A DNA stretch of 64,000 bases from Nocardia spumae (GTDB taxonomy: Bacteria > Actinomycetota > Actinomycetes > Mycobacteriales > Mycobacteriaceae): assembly GCF_020733635.1 (NCBI RefSeq), contig NZ_JAJFZL010000001.1, forward strand, positions 5,952,001-6,016,000, read 5' to 3'. A program made the translations under genes and the position numbers. Below are positions 49,906 through 61,187 of this stretch, one piece after another. How positions within the stretch are numbered: position 1 is the stretch's first letter; each line of letters begins with the position of its first letter. A model generated the notes under the pieces. That model was not told the DNA's origin and ran no database searches. It was given only the letters and a program-made list of their open reading frames with translations.

Positions 49906-50073
49906 CACTGCGGCGAGCCGCATTTCATAACACTGCGGCGAGCCGCATTTCATAACACTGCGGCGAGCCGCATTTCAAAACACTGCGGCGAGCCGCATTT
50001 CATGACACCGCGGCGAGCCGCATTCGATGAACCCGCGGCGAGCCGCATTCCTGTGACCCGCCGCGAGTCCGGG
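49906..50073. repeat. 25-bp tandem repeat with embedded palindrome (six units plus degraded seventh)
   Basis: Units begin at 49906, 49931, 49956, 49981, 50006 and 50031, with a degraded seventh at 50056. Each holds the core TGCGGCGAGCCGCA (or CCGCGGCGAGCCGCA), which folds as a short hairpin on either strand, followed by about 11 less conserved bases. The first two units are identical, and divergence increases toward the MaoC stop. The array fills the gap between the MaoC gene and the SDR ribosome site. Confidence 0.9.
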
Positions 50074-54169: not shown

Positions 54170-54418
54170 CCCTGACCTCCGGGTCGAGTGCTACCGCGTG
54201 CTCCGAATCACTCAACCACGCCGGACGCCGCGGCGGCGGGTTGCCACAGCGGCAAGCGACCACTTCCCCTCAATGGGAAATCACATCGCGGCATCTCGGC
54301 GGCTCGAGTTGAGACACTGACTATCGACCAGTCGGTGACGAGCCGTGCATGGCCCGACTCGGCGAGCCGGGAGGTTCGGGGTCCGGCAGCCGAGGTGCCG
54401 GAAGCAGCGTGAGGATTG

Positions 54419-54802
54419 ATGAGAGAACTTCATCCCGATGTGCGCGTGGCGATGGCGATGGGGCGGGAACTGAAACACCGCATCGCCGAAATGCGCGAGC
54501 GAGCCGACGGCGTGGTCGCGCGCCGCCCCTCACCGAGCGGCACGGTGATTCCCGAGGTCAATGCCTACGGCCAGCTGACCGATCTGTACCTCGCACCCGG
54601 CACCTGCGATCGATTCGACAATCACGAGCTGGTCGCCGAGATCATGTCAGCCATCCGGGAGAGCACCGCCAACGCGCGCCGACAGTACGACATCACCATG
54701 AACGAGGACCATCAGCACGTGCCACTTGCCGAGAAGGCGCGGCAGTGGCGGGCGGAGATGCACGCACCGAAGCCCCCCACCACTGGGAACCCAGAAGAAT
54801 GA
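54419..54802 (+). CDS. YbaB/EbfC-like protein of T7SS cassette C
   Basis: 127 residues from ATG 54419. Helix, strand pair TVIPEVNAYGQLTDLYLAPGTC, helix NHELVAEIMSAIRESTANAR: the YbaB/EbfC layout. GAGG lies 4-5 nt upstream. Opens cassette C, 33 bp before the next gene. Confidence 0.65.
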   Translation: MRELHPDVRVAMAMGRELKHRIAEMRERADGVVARRPSPSGTVIPEVNAYGQLTDLYLAPGTCDRFDNHELVAEIMSAIRESTANARRQYDITMNEDHQHVPLAEKARQWRAEMHAPKPPTTGNPEE

Positions 54803-54835: not shown

Positions 54836-56731
54836 ATGGCAGATTATCTGGATTTCGACCCGGATCAGCTGCGCGTATACGCCGAGCAACTCGATAGATA
54901 TGCCGCTGCCATGCGGAAATGGGGCGAGATTCCGGAGGGCTGGCTCAAAGAGTTCCCGGACGGCTACGGCACCATCGCAGATCCGATGCACGGCGCGCTG
55001 TGGGACTACTACCGCGATCGCCACGACAAGGCCGAAGCACAGGCGGCCTCGGCCATTCGAACCCGCGACGATCTGCGGGCCGCGGCCGAGCGCATGGAGC
55101 ACTCCGAACTCTCCGGGGGCCAACAGATTTCCAACACCGGCCCGCACGGCGGTCCGAGTCCGGTAGCCCCCCACACTCCCGGAGCACCAGGTGATACCGC
55201 GCCGCGCATCCCAGACAGAACGGATAATTCTCCCGAGTCGCAGCCGATGCCGGATGCCACGCCGGACACTGCCGTGCCCCCGGCCGGCACCGCCCGCTCC
55301 GACGGAGAGACCGGCCCGCCCCTGGCCGCAACACCCCCGCCCGGTCACGACAACAGGCTGCCGTTCGCAACTCCGAATATCGCTACATCACAAGATATTT
55401 CGCATACGCCGCCGAGCCTCGAACACCACCACGACAGTTCGGCACCCGCGCCGGTTCACGTCACGTCCGTGGAGGTTTCCCCGCTCGCCACCGCATACGG
55501 AATCGGTGACCAGCCCGAAACGCCGACCGCCGGTGCCGTACCACCGATGGGACCGGTAGGTCCCGCCCCCGCGGGTCCACCTCCCGAGCCACCGAGGCCG
55601 CTGCCCCGGGGACCACTCGCAGTCTCGGCCCAGCCCGCCCGGGGACACCGGCAGGGCCTGCCGCCGCTGGTAGTCGGCGACGAAGGCGAGGACGATCTGA
55701 CGCTGGCCCGGACACTACTGGCAGCCGTGCTCTTCGCAGTCGGGGATACAGCGCCCGGTGTCGAGTGGGCAACCGGGGTCGTCCGATCCGGGCGACGCGC
55801 CATCGTCACGCTGACCTCCACCGAGGGACGCGGGTGGCTACCGGCCGGATTGTTCCTGCCCTCGGAGGTTCTGATCCCCTGGCACTGGGATTCGATCCTG
55901 GATGCCGAGGGGCGGACGGCCATTACGACGTTCGAAAACAGTTCCGACCCAGCCCGTTTCCTCGCCGAATTCGGTCATCACGCATCCCGCAGCAAGCGTG
56001 GCCGATTGCGCGCTCTCGCATCGTCGGCGCGTGTGAACGATTCCGTGCGCGCCGCTCTCGGTAACGAGGTCGTCATCGCGGATCAGGTGGTAGCGAGCGA
56101 AACCGCCGTCGACCTGTCCGGCCCCGGCGCCGGTCTGTCGGACCGGCTGGATATGGGTGGCTCCTCAGCGGCGCGGCAACGCGCAACCGAAATCGCGGAT
56201 TCCGACATCCGTACTGTCTGCGTGCAATTGGCTCACGCCGCCCATGAGCTGGTACGGCAGGCGGCAGCGACCGCCGCTCCGGAGACCTCCGCCCACCGAG
56301 CCCGGCGGCACCGGGTCTTGGAGGCACTTCGCGCCGGGCGCGAGGTGCCGACCGACGCTTGGGACAACTCCCCCACCGCCGAGCACCACGACGCAGGGGC
56401 ATCGTCGGCCATCTTCGCGCCATCGTCAGTATCGCGTCCAGCAGTGGTAGCTCCCGCGATCTCCACCGCTTCCCCACACCCCACGTCGGACACAGATATC
56501 GAACGCGGCCGGACATTCGAGCGACGAGCCGATGAACTGATATCGCTACTGCTCGCGGGGAGAGGTGATCGCCAAATGCTTCGCGATGCGCTCTACGCCC
56601 ACGATCAGATCGCGGCACATCCGCAACTCCAGGTCATGTTGCGGAGGGCGGAAATCGGTTCTGTCGACGTAGGTTCGGCCGGGGAGGGCGAGATGGCGAA
56701 ACCGGCCGACGAATATCGAGTTACCCTGTGA
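54836..56731 (+). CDS. EspC-like N-terminus with large C-terminal domain (DUF5632/DUF5631-like), T7SS-associated
   Basis: 631 residues. Residues 1-90 are EspC/ESX-type helices (DYLDFDPDQLRVYAEQLDRYA). Residues of about 95-270 are Pro/Thr-rich. A globular region follows with ARTLLAAVLFAVGDTAPGVEWATGVV and RGWLPAGLFLPSEVLIPWHWD, then a helical region to the end. The two-part C-terminus resembles DUF5632/DUF5631 proteins of mycobacterial ESX loci (Rv3899c-like), an assignment by memory. No signal peptide and no catalytic motif recognised. Confidence 0.55.
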   Translation: MADYLDFDPDQLRVYAEQLDRYAAAMRKWGEIPEGWLKEFPDGYGTIADPMHGALWDYYRDRHDKAEAQAASAIRTRDDLRAAAERMEHSELSGGQQISNTGPHGGPSPVAPHTPGAPGDTAPRIPDRTDNSPESQPMPDATPDTAVPPAGTARSDGETGPPLAATPPPGHDNRLPFATPNIATSQDISHTPPSLEHHHDSSAPAPVHVTSVEVSPLATAYGIGDQPETPTAGAVPPMGPVGPAPAGPPPEPPRPLPRGPLAVSAQPARGHRQGLPPLVVGDEGEDDLTLARTLLAAVLFAVGDTAPGVEWATGVVRSGRRAIVTLTSTEGRGWLPAGLFLPSEVLIPWHWDSILDAEGRTAITTFENSSDPARFLAEFGHHASRSKRGRLRALASSARVNDSVRAALGNEVVIADQVVASETAVDLSGPGAGLSDRLDMGGSSAARQRATEIADSDIRTVCVQLAHAAHELVRQAAATAAPETSAHRARRHRVLEALRAGREVPTDAWDNSPTAEHHDAGASSAIFAPSSVSRPAVVAPAISTASPHPTSDTDIERGRTFERRADELISLLLAGRGDRQMLRDALYAHDQIAAHPQLQVMLRRAEIGSVDVGSAGEGEMAKPADEYRVTL

Positions 56732-56765: not shown

Positions 56766-58889
56766 ATGACCGACGCGGCGGATACCGGTGCGCTGATCGA
56801 GAAGATCCGGAGTACCCACGATCATTGGGGCAACGACCGCTACACCGCGGACCAATCCAAAGAGTTCCTGAAAGATCTTGCCGGCCTGACACCGGAACAA
56901 TTCGACACAGTCTGGCACGGCCTCAGCAAGAACGATCGAGAAGATCTCGCACTTGATATAGAAAACGACGCCTACGATCCACGCAAAGAAGGCGACTATC
57001 AGGTGCTCGCCAAAGCGTTGGCGGACGACAAGTTCGACGACGCAATGACGTACATAAAAGGACAGAAAGCCAACCAAGACGCTCAGAAAAATAGTGATCC
57101 GCCGAAGTTCAATAAGGATCAGGGATTCCTACCCAGCGATGGCAAGAAGCATTTCGAGGAAGTGCTCCTGTATGTTCCCAGGGGGCGGAGCGCGTCGCTG
57201 CTCGAGCTGATCCAGGATACCCAGGACACGATGCAGAGCGGAATGGACTCACTCGGCTCTCGCAACCCGAAGGACGCACCTGATTTCAATGCCATGCTGG
57301 AGCAACACCAGCTCGACAAGCCTGACGGCTGGTCGAATATCATCGACAGGTATGACACGTTCAAGAAGACCTTCGACTCACGCGAAGACGCATTCAAAGA
57401 CAAAAACAAGGATGTCAATTTCACTACCAAGACGACCCAGAAGGACCTTCTGGAATGCGCCTCTAAACTCAAAAGTGTCAAAGACGATCTGAACACTTCT
57501 CTTCAGGTGGATTTGAGCACCAGCGCCAGACAGGACGGCAACAAGTTATACACCCACCCGGGTGGACCAAATTCCACGGACCCGGGAGAGCTGGTATTCA
57601 CTCGCGCGAAGTCTACCGATGACTTCACGCTGACGCCGGAAGCCGAGCAGAAGTACTACGTCGCCCAGATCCAAACCGCCGTCGACAAGTGGAACAAAAT
57701 TTACGACGACACGGCGATGAAGTTTCAGAAGCAGGCCGACGGAGTCGACGACCCAGGCCCGGGAGCTCCCCCCAAACCGGCAGCGCCGGCAGCACCCGCA
57801 GCCCCCGCAGCCCCCGCAGCACCGGCGTCGCCGGTCACGCCCGCTGTCGATACAACCGCGACACCCCTGGACGACCAGCAGGACTACAGCGACATCTTCG
57901 GCGACCTGTCCGATGGGCAGGACGGGGCCAAGGCCACCGACATTTCGGATCTCTGGGGCACCGACGACCTGAACGGCACGTCGGACGGCACCGATAAGAC
58001 CGGCACCTCCGACGGGACGGGCTCGTCCGATTCGGATAACCCGTGGCAGCAGATCGAGAACGGCATCACCGGCGGAAACGGCCAGAACACGGGCACGACC
58101 GGCTCCACCGGTTCCACCGGTGCGGCAACGAATCCGGCAGCCGCGATGGCGAACCCCGCGACATATATGAATCCGATGACGAACCCCGGTATGGCGGGAT
58201 TCATGAACCCCGCCGGGTATCAGAACGCGTCCTCACAGTTCGGCCAGAACGGCACGGGGACAGGCAGCGGCGCCGGTTACGGCAACCCATCGATTCCCGG
58301 TATGCCCAACGCGGCGTCGGCATTCAACACCGGCGCCACCGCACAACAGGCGGGCTATACGAACCCGGCATCGGCGGTATCGGCCAGCCAAGCCGCCGGC
58401 ACGCCCCCGCCCGGGACGACGAATCATTCCATGGTCGATATGAAGCTGCCGGACGGCAGTGCGCCGCAGAAGGTTCCCGCGAGCGTGGCCGCCGCGGTGA
58501 ACAGTGCGCTGAACAATCCGAACGGCAGCGATGCGGTCGCCGCCTACGGCAGCGCCTACGGGCAGCCGACACCGGTCGACGGTTCGAATCTGCACACCGG
58601 CGATATCGTGCAGTGGGCCGATCGCAGTGCGGTCATCGTTCGCGAGGGTAGCGACAACTACTACATCATCACCGACGGCCAGATGCGGCACGTCGAGCTG
58701 AAAGATCTCCCGAACTACAACAACGGGGCGTTCGGCCAGTTCGGCGGCTTCTTCCGGCCGTCCGGTGGGGGCGATGCGAACCAGCCGGGGCAGGCGGAGC
58801 CGCACGCCATGGTGCAGCCGACCCAGACGGTCGCCGCATCGTCGACGACCTCCACTCGCCCGCCGAGCACCGACACACAACAGACGTGA
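56766..58889 (+). CDS. Large T7SS-cassette protein with degenerate NlpC/P60-like C-terminus
   Basis: 707 residues. Residues 1-330 are charged helices with unusually many Lys, Asp and Asn and AT-richer codons than neighbours. Residues 335-550 are low complexity (Ala-Pro repeats, Asp/Gly/Ser, Gly/Asn/Met). Residues 556-666 repeat the landmarks of the cassette A NlpC/P60 domain: LPDGS, GDIVQWADRSAVIV, DGQM and FGGFFRPS. The catalytic Cys region is absent, and the site of His340 is occupied by ADRS. Probably a binding rather than cleaving version. No signal peptide. Its stop overlaps the next gene by GTGA. Confidence 0.6.
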   Translation: MTDAADTGALIEKIRSTHDHWGNDRYTADQSKEFLKDLAGLTPEQFDTVWHGLSKNDREDLALDIENDAYDPRKEGDYQVLAKALADDKFDDAMTYIKGQKANQDAQKNSDPPKFNKDQGFLPSDGKKHFEEVLLYVPRGRSASLLELIQDTQDTMQSGMDSLGSRNPKDAPDFNAMLEQHQLDKPDGWSNIIDRYDTFKKTFDSREDAFKDKNKDVNFTTKTTQKDLLECASKLKSVKDDLNTSLQVDLSTSARQDGNKLYTHPGGPNSTDPGELVFTRAKSTDDFTLTPEAEQKYYVAQIQTAVDKWNKIYDDTAMKFQKQADGVDDPGPGAPPKPAAPAAPAAPAAPAAPASPVTPAVDTTATPLDDQQDYSDIFGDLSDGQDGAKATDISDLWGTDDLNGTSDGTDKTGTSDGTGSSDSDNPWQQIENGITGGNGQNTGTTGSTGSTGAATNPAAAMANPATYMNPMTNPGMAGFMNPAGYQNASSQFGQNGTGTGSGAGYGNPSIPGMPNAASAFNTGATAQQAGYTNPASAVSASQAAGTPPPGTTNHSMVDMKLPDGSAPQKVPASVAAAVNSALNNPNGSDAVAAYGSAYGQPTPVDGSNLHTGDIVQWADRSAVIVREGSDNYYIITDGQMRHVELKDLPNYNNGAFGQFGGFFRPSGGGDANQPGQAEPHAMVQPTQTVAASSTTSTRPPSTDTQQT

Positions 58890-59968
58890 CGGCCCGATCG
58901 GCCGGAGACTTCCTGGTCGATGTCGCCGAGCGGATCGGGACCGGTTGCACGCCGGATTCCCTTCGCTCGGTACTACTTCGGGCCTGCGGCGGCCGATTGG
59001 AAGCGCGGACCCCGGACGGGATTCGGTCGAGCGGAATCACACCTTCCGGAATTCCGTTCGAAGCCAGTGTGACAGGTGGGCGGGGGCAATATTCGCCCGC
59101 GCTCCGGTACGTCACCGAAACCACCACCTGGGAGCCGGAGTTCGCCGTTCGGCGGGAGGCATATCTGGCCGCGATCGCGGAACTCGTCGCCTGGCTGCCT
59201 GGCAGGAACGATCCGGTGACCGACCTTCTGCACTCCTTCGTCACCACGGTGTACCCCGATCCAGCCGCCATCGAGCCGGGGCGGCGTCTGGCCATGTGGC
59301 TCGGAATCGTGCACCACCCCACCGACCCAAATCACATTGCCGGGCTCAAGGTGTACTGCAGCCCCACCGTGCGGTCCGATGTCATCGAGACCGTGAGCCG
59401 ACGATGGCCTGGCTTCGAGGGATTGAGTCCGATACCGGAGAACGACGATCTTTTCCGTACCGCCGGAGTCGCAATAGAGGTCGACGCACACGCACGCGTG
59501 GCGCACAAGATCTATCTCCGGGCGCGCCACCGAAATGTGGCGGTACCAATGAAATTGGTCCGCCATTTCGGCGAACCCGGGTGGGAGACGCTGTCGGAGT
59601 TCACCCGGTGTGGCGTGGATGCGGCAGACCTGCACAATTTCGATTACTTCGTCTGCCGTACCCGGCGTGACAACGAAAACGCTTCGTGCACTGTCACGTT
59701 GATGACGAAAAGGTCTGACTACCTCGCCGAGTTGGCCCGCCAACTGGCGGGACGGCACCACGGCACCACCCGGGCGGTGGACGCCATGGCACATGCCGCG
59801 CGTTCCTGCGGCGCGACTTGGCGCTATTCGGGACTGGGACTGGGCTTCTCAGCCGAGCGCGGCATCGACAAACTGAACGTCTACGGCACGCCGACGTGGG
59901 AGAACACCTCGGGCTCGGCCGAACTCAGATCTGCCCGGCCGCTCTCACCATCGGAAGATGCGCGTTGA
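58886..59968 (+). CDS. Putative ABBA-fold (DMATS/tryptophan dimethylallyltransferase-like) prenyltransferase
   Basis: 360 residues, GTG start overlapping the previous stop (GTGA). GIPFEASVTGGRGQYSPALRYVTE matches the GxPxExS...RYxxE beginning of DMATS enzymes, where the Glu (here Glu59) deprotonates indole and the Arg (Arg74) holds pyrophosphate. Three strands end in Lys-x-Tyr-type pairs expected to shield the carbocation: LKVY (154-157), HKIY (207-210) and DKLNVY (328-333). The length and absence of Asp-rich motifs also fit. The substrate is unknown. It overlaps the convergent oxidase gene by 44 bp. The call rests on motifs only. Confidence 0.55.
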   Translation: MTARSAGDFLVDVAERIGTGCTPDSLRSVLLRACGGRLEARTPDGIRSSGITPSGIPFEASVTGGRGQYSPALRYVTETTTWEPEFAVRREAYLAAIAELVAWLPGRNDPVTDLLHSFVTTVYPDPAAIEPGRRLAMWLGIVHHPTDPNHIAGLKVYCSPTVRSDVIETVSRRWPGFEGLSPIPENDDLFRTAGVAIEVDAHARVAHKIYLRARHRNVAVPMKLVRHFGEPGWETLSEFTRCGVDAADLHNFDYFVCRTRRDNENASCTVTLMTKRSDYLAELARQLAGRHHGTTRAVDAMAHAARSCGATWRYSGLGLGFSAERGIDKLNVYGTPTWENTSGSAELRSARPLSPSEDAR

Positions 59969-61187
59969 CGTGTTCGAGCCGCAAGGCGGAACGCAGTTCG
60001 GCCAGCCGGTTCAGATCGTCACCGTAGAGACCGGCCGCTTTCGCATCGTCGAGGTCGCTCACTCCGTACAGATACGGGCGGCCACCCAACCCACAACAGC
60101 GGCGCTGCAGGTCGCGAAATGTCTCCCGCGCATCGGCTATCGCGTCCGGATGACGATCGACGGTGGCGTACAACCCGACCCCGACCGAGACCGGTGCCGG
60201 CAGGACGGGTGCGAATGCGAAGGGAACGGCATCGACGGGCCGCCGTATGACCAGGACGTACACCCTGGTCGAGGGATGGTCGAAGGGTACTCGATCAAGC
60301 TGTGCCGCAACGGTTTCGACCATCGCCACGCAGTGTTCGGCCGGTACCACGTAGTCTGCCCACATCCGCGCTCTGTCGACGAGCGGCCGCCACGCGGCAC
60401 GCGGATCGGCCTCCCACACCGGCGACTGCGTGACAACGGTGCAGTCCTCACCCTCACACGGCCGGGCCGGGCCGGGACCTCGCCGACCGCTGACCGATCG
60501 GATTCGGCCGTGGGCGGCCATTCCCGAGTAGGTGTCGACGTCGTCGCGGTTCGCGACTCGTGCGGTGTGCTCGGCGAGCGCGCCGAGACTCGGATGATCG
60601 ACCCGATGCTCGTGCAGGCGGAGGTCGTGTCCGACTGTCCGCAGCACCACCCGGTCGATCAATCCGACCGTACCCAGCCCCCCGAGCGCGAACCGGAACA
60701 GTTCGCGATGTTCGGTCCGGGAACACCAACGGCTGCTTCCGGTTCCGTCGATCAGCGCAATGCGCTCCACATGATCGATCTGCCAGCCGGATCGGATCGA
60801 CTGGGATCCGGCGCCACCGACGGACAATGTGCCACCCACCGACATATGCAGATGATCCGGCAGCACCGGAAACGCCCGCCCGCGCCGATTCAGATAGCGC
60901 TCGAGTCCGAGCCAGCTGGCACCCGCCGGCACCTCGACCAGTCCGTCACCCAGATCCCGGATTTCCCGGGTCGCGGTGTCGGGCGCGTAGGTGACCAGCA
61001 GTTCGTCATCGGTGACCGTCTGACCGGCACAGGAGTGCCCGGAACCGCGCAGCGTCAACGGCCGGCCGGAACCGAGCAGAGCGGACGGGAATGCGGACGG
61101 CTGTCGATGGACGGCCCGAGGAGTAGCGCGATACAGGCCGCCGAAGTCGGTATCGAATTCGGTGACGGAAACCTCACCGGCACTCAT
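59925..61187 (-). CDS. FAD-linked oxidase, cytokinin-dehydrogenase/BBE-like
   Basis: 420 residues. PCMH-type FAD domain: LRGSGHSCAGQTV with His51 where related oxidases bind FAD covalently, PAGASWLGLERYLNRRGRAFPVLP, and SVGGTLSVGGAGSQSIRSGWQIDHV. The C-terminal substrate domain is CKX-like in size. No signal peptide, so it is cytoplasmic. Its 3' end overlaps the putative prenyltransferase gene by 44 bp in antisense. Oxidation of a prenylated amine or alcohol is plausible. Confidence 0.75.
   Translation of the reverse strand: MSAGEVSVTEFDTDFGGLYRATPRAVHRQPSAFPSALLGSGRPLTLRGSGHSCAGQTVTDDELLVTYAPDTATREIRDLGDGLVEVPAGASWLGLERYLNRRGRAFPVLPDHLHMSVGGTLSVGGAGSQSIRSGWQIDHVERIALIDGTGSSRWCSRTEHRELFRFALGGLGTVGLIDRVVLRTVGHDLRLHEHRVDHPSLGALAEHTARVANRDDVDTYSGMAAHGRIRSVSGRRGPGPARPCEGEDCTVVTQSPVWEADPRAAWRPLVDRARMWADYVVPAEHCVAMVETVAAQLDRVPFDHPSTRVYVLVIRRPVDAVPFAFAPVLPAPVSVGVGLYATVDRHPDAIADARETFRDLQRRCCGLGGRPYLYGVSDLDDAKAAGLYGDDLNRLAELRSALRLEHVNAHLPMVRAAGQI

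Follow-up and report, generated by a model that had tools for sequence, protein, structure and literature searches.

A divergent DMATS-type prenyltransferase-like gene in the constant company of ESX-type genes in Nocardia

Enzymes of the dimethylallyltryptophan synthase (DMATS) type are familiar from natural-product chemistry, and the locus described here raises the question of what such an enzyme would do among secretion genes: in every locus examined, this lineage adjoined genes of the ESX type. The locus lies in a 64,000-nt stretch of the Nocardia spumae genome (assembly GCF_020733635.1, contig NZ_JAJFZL010000001.1, positions 5,952,001 to 6,016,000, forward strand), referred to below as the window. 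A preliminary description of the window had proposed a prenyltransferase (PT) candidate of the DMATS or alpha-beta-beta-alpha (ABBA) type inside a type VII secretion system (T7SS) cassette, translationally coupled to the gene before it. The two genes and their junction, in coordinates of the window, are the following:

58886..59968, + strand: PT, DMATS-fold prenyltransferase-like gene (360 aa, GTG start)
56766..58889, + strand: T7_707, gene for a 707-aa protein, the constant neighbour of PT (homologue at most 5.5 kb from PT in 38 of 38 loci)
58886..58889, + strand: GTGA, where the PT start codon and the stop codon of T7_707 share bases (4-base overlap, found at 13 of 18 co-directional junctions)

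In the predicted model of PT, ten strands were arranged as five pairs separated by helices, which is the PT-barrel of ABBA repeats. A Foldseek search with this model gave 306 matches at E ≤ 10, of which the best 50 titles were considered, and for VIA the best 50 matches were listed. The structural matches spanned residues 1–341 of the model and, judged by their titles, all of the best 50 of 306 from Foldseek and all VIA matches listed were prenyltransferases of the DMATS/ABBA fold. As no confident match to another fold occurred among them, the proposed fold was upheld, and all eight key residues were placed on predicted strands of the barrel. Homology to DMATS was also detected by comparison of sequence profiles (hhalign E 1.9e-12 over 321 columns, with controls at 0.13, 0.18 and 0.45). 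The relationship was distant, with 16–18% identity to five canonical DMATS and scores under the curated cut-offs of Pfam (PF11991, 12.1 bits vs 25) and NCBIfam (TIGR03429, 15.2 vs 163.85). PF11991 was matched by 21 of 49 PT relatives at E ≤ 0.1 (best E 1.1e-5). The phmmer search of PT against the PDB gave no match, and a PF11991 search of the window's own genome found nothing there and nothing in the controls. Overall, the homology of PT to DMATS is well supported. A single PDB match in the PT profile search (E 1.6) was taken as chance. Two of the 49 relatives also matched DUF6879 (PF21806; best E 1.6e-4).

The residues expected to form the active site were followed in an alignment of 49 PT relatives, from which all conservation counts were taken, and in a separate 14-row alignment including the five canonical DMATS. 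Their codons are as follows:

59060..59062, + strand: E59, aligned with the catalytic Glu of DMATS (Glu in 48 of 49 rows, Asp in 1; invariant in the 14-row alignment)
59105..59107, + strand: R74, maps to a diphosphate-binding Arg (49 of 49)
59348..59356, + strand: K155 and Y157 in LKVY (49 of 49 each)
59507..59515, + strand: K208 and Y210 in HKIY (49 of 49 each)
59870..59884, + strand: K329 to Y333 in KLNVY, the counterpart of RxxxY in DMATS (K329 in 48 of 49, Y333 in 49 of 49)

The numbers given earlier for E59, R74, K155/Y157 and K208/Y210 were correct in the 360-aa open reading frame (ORF), and the motifs GIPFEAS, PALRYVTE, LKVY, HKIY and DKLNVY were all present; of the three strand ends described as Lys-x-Tyr, however, the third proved to be Lys-x3-Tyr (K329/Y333). 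The columns invariant in the 14-row alignment with the canonical enzymes were E59, E78, K155, K208, Y210 and Y333. Among the 8 positions aligned to DMATS catalytic residues, 6 belonged to the 14 invariant columns of the 49-row alignment with its 340 profile positions (hypergeometric P 3.9e-8, the 8 positions having been chosen after the alignment was seen). In TleC (PMC4786772), the catalytic residue is Glu106, the phosphates are bound via Arg119, Lys187, Arg248 and Arg378, and the shield is formed by Tyr252, Tyr317 and Tyr382; the spacing of Arg378/Tyr382 there equals that of K329/Y333 in PT. Judged by the residues retained, PT is likely to be catalytically active. The prenyl diphosphate would be held by R74, K155, K208 and K329 together with tyrosines Y157, Y210 and Y333, as in DMATS, and E59 would aid the attack by an electron-rich aromatic ring within the barrel.

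Of the known enzymes, the bacterial DMATS (5- and 6-dimethylallyltryptophan synthases, PriB, IptA; PDB 6zrz, 5inj, 7w8u) resembled PT in the ten-strand barrel ringed by helices, the catalytic Glu, the Arg/Lys/Tyr diphosphate site and the length of about 360 aa. PT differed from them in its low identity and sub-cut-off scores, in lacking the Arg of RxKxY, in having Thr at a shield position occupied by His in PriB and IptA, and in its place in a secretion-type cassette. The peptide prenyltransferases PagF, KgpF, LimF and PirF share the ABBA fold, but their Z-scores were far below the 29.3 of the PT–DMATS comparison and their chains are shorter.

The remaining genes around PT in the window are these:

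54836..56731, + strand: EspC631, gene for a 631-aa protein with an EspC-type N-terminus, a Pro-rich linker and, at the C-terminus, a domain with weak similarity to DUF5632
54416..54802, + strand: YbaB/EbfC-like protein of 128 aa (PF02575 E 4.5e-5, 24 bits vs cut-off 25.5)
59925..61187, - strand: flavin adenine dinucleotide (FAD)-linked oxidase of 420 aa, an optional partner (PF01565 E 1.2e-15; convergent with PT, 44-base overlap)

To what extent this company is kept was assessed in 38 Nocardia PT loci, comprising 36 intact copies in 35 genomes and 2 broken ones, with the nearest copy within 5.5 kb of PT counted as the neighbour, ESX-type copies included. A T7_707 homologue was present in all 38 loci across four gene orders, in which, by our own tally, PT lay downstream on the same strand (18), divergently (12), convergently (2) or upstream on the same strand (6). 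YbaB-like genes were found in 34 of 38 loci, EspC-like genes in 34 and the FAD oxidase in 17. One locus is a contig of 4.1 kb (L111), in two the YbaB gene lay slightly beyond 5.5 kb (L110, L112), the EspC-like gene was absent within this distance from L048 and L106, and a locus with a broken PT (L115) had T7_707 alone. In 26 genomes searched by tblastn with the window genes, the 707-aa type and YbaB-like genes always occurred near PT, the EspC-like gene was missing from L048 alone (25 of 26) and the FAD oxidase turned up in 13; in L037–L039, L041 and L047 the oxidase was located upstream of PT on the same strand. The 4-base overlap between PT and T7_707 was detected at 13 of the 18 co-directional junctions, a count that takes the candidate start nearest the overlap and is thus biased towards overlaps; the coupling claimed earlier for the window was borne out.

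The evolutionary distances of PT correlated with those of the EspC-like proteins (r 0.91) and of T7_707 (r 0.80) over 23 loci, L046 excluded, and none of 2000 shuffles reached such values, although these correlations would equally follow from co-inheritance along the species tree. PT was the most conserved of the three cassette proteins, with a mean pairwise identity of 58% (46% and 36% for the other two). The constant company of ESX-type genes around PT is well supported, and the gene pair, which the preliminary description suggested looking for in other Nocardia genomes, was present in every locus.

The relation of this cassette to ESX loci could be traced within the same genome. Three EspC-like matches were detected there, namely the window copy and two adjacent ones at 5.43 Mb. 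The latter belong to an ESX locus (G000 C1, about 5.41–5.44 Mb) encoding WXG100, PPE, EccA, EccB, EccD and EccE proteins, an S8 subtilase and a YbaB-like protein, with two EspC-like genes and one T7_707-like ORF in the same locus. A 1381-aa ORF occupied the expected place of EccC and is a candidate by position. The YbaB-like paralogue of this locus exceeded the Pfam cut-off, unlike the window copy. T7_707 was labelled a T7SS protein because of its neighbours and of the homologous ORF in this ESX locus; the tie to a T7SS-type cassette, proposed from the window alone, was supported by the linkage in all loci and by this paralogous set. This ESX locus with its PPE, EccA and EccE genes (5.405–5.445 Mb; L086, L087) is also of note in itself, and the genome has three YukD-domain matches. 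In a 2024 paper (PMC11217815), ESX-4 is stated to be the only T7SS of non-mycobacterial Actinomycetota such as Nocardia; the N. spumae locus looks richer than that statement.

Of the 68 EspC-like proteins placed in a tree, 24 grouped in a single clade (SH-aLRT 100), one each from 24 of the 26 PT loci; the remaining 44, which are ESX-type, fell outside it, and L048 and L054 had no clade member. The tree was a quick, midpoint-rooted one, in which ORFs below 500 aa were omitted and 13 of the 24 PT-less genomes with EspC-like genes were used; of its 35 rows labelled PT, 11 were ESX-type copies from the same stretches, outside the clade. Among 59 Nocardia genomes, EspC-like genes were present in 13 of 13 with PT (one broken) vs 24 of 46 without it (Fisher P 0.001, relatedness being ignored). 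The ten top-scoring copies (at least 736 bits) all came from PT genomes and the next one (705 bits) from a PT-less genome, while three PT genomes (G013, G082, G086) had no copy of at least 736 bits; the A4 profile used for scoring combined 10 rows of the PT clade with 4 of the ESX type, which tilts its scores towards PT copies.

The partner proteins themselves were less easily classified. By our reading of the alignment, T7_707 consists of a helical-looking N-terminal part, a low-complexity middle and a conserved C-terminal part. It had no Pfam match at E ≤ 1, and the homologue search found one other protein only among 8000 candidates scored. Profiles of the cassette proteins gave no useful match to solved structures, that of T7_707 matching low-complexity stretches and giving otherwise weak matches only. 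EspC631 matched PF10824 with E 1.2e-4 and 22.9 bits, 0.6 bits short of the cut-off of 23.5; in the 631-aa family, PF10824 was matched by 14 of 14 members at E ≤ 0.01 and DUF5632, the Rv3899c domain, by 4 of 14. EspC631 resembled EspC and EspK/Rv3899c in its EspC-type N-terminus, linker and weakly DUF5632-like C-terminal domain. EspK is described as a chaperone of EspB in which a low-complexity linker connects the N-terminal domain to a C-terminal domain that resembles a fragment of Rv3899c (PMC9811218). EspC631 differed in having no match to solved structures, and the passages on EspK that were read mention no prenyltransferase (PMC9811218).

Among 150 Nocardia genomes, 37 had a PT match, which in G004 and G013 was a broken copy. 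A sample of the class yielded 3 matching genomes among 394 (2 Nocardia and one weak match) and a sample of the family 9 among 301 (8 Nocardia and one weak match). By their reading frames, the weak matches looked like a condensing enzyme (G164, 18.9 bits) and a xanthine-dehydrogenase-type ORF (G625, 21.6 bits), and both were taken as chance. The broken copies (L114 in G004, L115 in G013) adjoined a T7_707 homologue, and L114 also had YbaB-like and EspC-like genes.

A metagenomic PT group used as the query matched two genomes among 396 from the phylum, the window's own and G1126, the latter being the sole match among 296 genomes of its class. The PT relative of G1126 (L082:9862-10887) was identical to a protein named as coming from a metagenome-assembled genome of Acidimicrobiales, and in this one locus it overlapped the 3' end of an RHS-repeat gene by four bases. 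The RHS-repeat gene matched PF05593 (E 2.2e-78) and otherwise only RHS/YD families and DUF6531 in Pfam. A small divergent gene, the RHS-repeat gene and the PT-like gene occupied L082 4471-10887, between rpoC and rpsL-rpsG-fusA (housekeeping names by our reading). RHS proteins with WXG100-related partners have been described as candidate T7SS substrates (PMC11217815). L082 is alike in that the PT relative overlaps the end of the RHS gene and a small divergent gene lies upstream; it differs in that the small protein, WXG-like by our reading, had no Pfam match, in that the arrangement is known from one locus, and in that the PT relative occupies the place of an immunity gene.

Two possibilities are suggested by the PT lineage: secreted proteins are modified in a new way, or a small molecule is linked to secretion. 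Beyond the observed homology, predicted fold, residue conservation, linkage and co-inheritance, we hypothesise a protein acceptor and a role in export. Our preferred explanation, held tentatively at somewhat less than an even chance, is that PT is a catalytically competent, divergent aromatic prenyltransferase of the DMATS type and a dedicated part of an ESX-related, probably duplicated cassette, with a cassette protein as the acceptor before export. The cassette would be related to the genes of the ESX locus and probably duplicated from them. Most likely, one of the cassette proteins would receive the prenyl group on an aromatic side chain while still in the cytosol, and the group might aid this protein in entering or crossing the mycolate outer layer. 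A cassette protein is favoured because the 707-aa gene was the constant partner, to which PT was often translationally coupled, and because the window cassette, with gaps of 33 and 34 bases and two overlapping junctions, is too tightly packed to contain a separate precursor or acceptor gene between its members. Comparison of PT-linked with ESX-type proteins, T7_707 ORFs below 400 aa being omitted and the rows assigned to the two types by hand, pointed to two speculative acceptor residues:

57330..57332, + strand: W189 codon of T7_707 (24 of 26 PT-linked rows vs 0 of 8 ESX-type rows)
57690..57692, + strand: W309 codon of T7_707 (24 of 26 PT-linked rows vs 0 of 8 ESX-type rows)

Both residues are candidates from a weak alignment. 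The more specific proposal, that PT is the first DMATS-type enzyme to prenylate a T7SS substrate, with an aromatic residue such as Trp189 or Trp309 modified before export in Nocardia and RHS proteins modified in Acidimicrobiales, is on the unlikely side; if true, it would link a novel kind of protein modification to ESX-type secretion.

Several observations weigh against a cassette-protein acceptor or against conventional catalysis. W189 and W309 may be core residues, and the PT-linked and ESX-type T7_707 proteins aligned poorly at the N-terminus. An acceptor was also sought in the 19 columns that part PT-linked from ESX-type EspC-like proteins and none was clear, the sole gained aromatic, His or Cys residue among them being His63. 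PT seems dispensable, as the two broken copies lie beside a retained T7_707 homologue. In the active site, the Arg of RxKxY was replaced by A206, a position variable among the 49 rows, and the shield Tyr of TLYxP by T271; matched by motif order and spacing, these correspond to Arg248 and Tyr317 of TleC (PMC4786772). Column 271 contained His in 22 rows, Ser in 9, Thr in 7 and Tyr in 6, and the TLYxP Tyr is not family-defining since PriB and IptA carry His there. Small-molecule chemistry is suggested by the FAD oxidase, which neighbours PT in 17 of 38 loci. In that case PT would prenylate tryptophan, an indole or another aromatic compound, the FAD enzyme would oxidise it further in some species, and the cassette would export it, carry it or work alongside. 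The nearest structures act, by their titles, on free tryptophan or small indoles, and the oxidase adjoined PT in more than one orientation; however, in 21 of 38 loci no such gene was found close to PT, whereas the 707-aa type gene was present in all, and in a crude neighbourhood comparison of 26 stretches, in 21 of which the gene caller found PT, families other than those of the cassette and the FAD oxidase reached 10 members at most. A small molecule as the acceptor is doubtful but distinctly possible.

PT might also have ceased to be an enzyme and now use its DMATS scaffold for binding, as a chaperone or as an immunity protein against a secreted partner, which we regard as improbable. The two altered active-site positions would fit, as would the place of PT directly after the 707-aa gene in 18 of 38 loci and that of the Acidimicrobiales relative after the RHS gene, where immunity genes usually lie. 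Yet the other catalytic positions were invariant or nearly so, 20 of 38 loci had PT in another position relative to the 707-aa gene, and PT was the best conserved of the three cassette proteins, whereas variation would be expected of an immunity protein; the Pfam scan of the window cassette proteins gave no toxin family at E ≤ 1. Quite improbable, in our view, is a purely historical link, in which PT and the cassette would share no function but travel together on one mobile or duplicating segment. ESX loci evolve by duplication, relatives of the cassette sit in such loci, PT is patchy among Nocardia genomes, and plain co-inheritance also yields correlated distances, but the link was kept in 38 of 38 loci despite four gene orders, with a dedicated clade of EspC-like partners and coupled junctions.

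A search of the literature by titles and the beginnings of abstracts, with subscription papers mostly outside its coverage, returned no description of a link between such a prenyltransferase and T7SS. The enzyme kind, DMATS, is known, and we could not find its setting beside type VII secretion genes described. PT would offer a handle on the poorly understood EspC/EspK-like cassettes.

Some minor features of the window were also recorded. A defence-system library gave no match for four of the window cassette proteins and one weak match for the YbaB-like protein (PDC-S43, E 0.0096). A scan found 0 promoter-like sites and 5 terminator-like sites vs 4.0 in shuffled sequences. A tandem array at 49906-50067, in which a 25-base unit containing the palindrome GCGGC-GA-GCCGC occurs about six times, was located directly upstream of a gene that we read as encoding a short-chain dehydrogenase.

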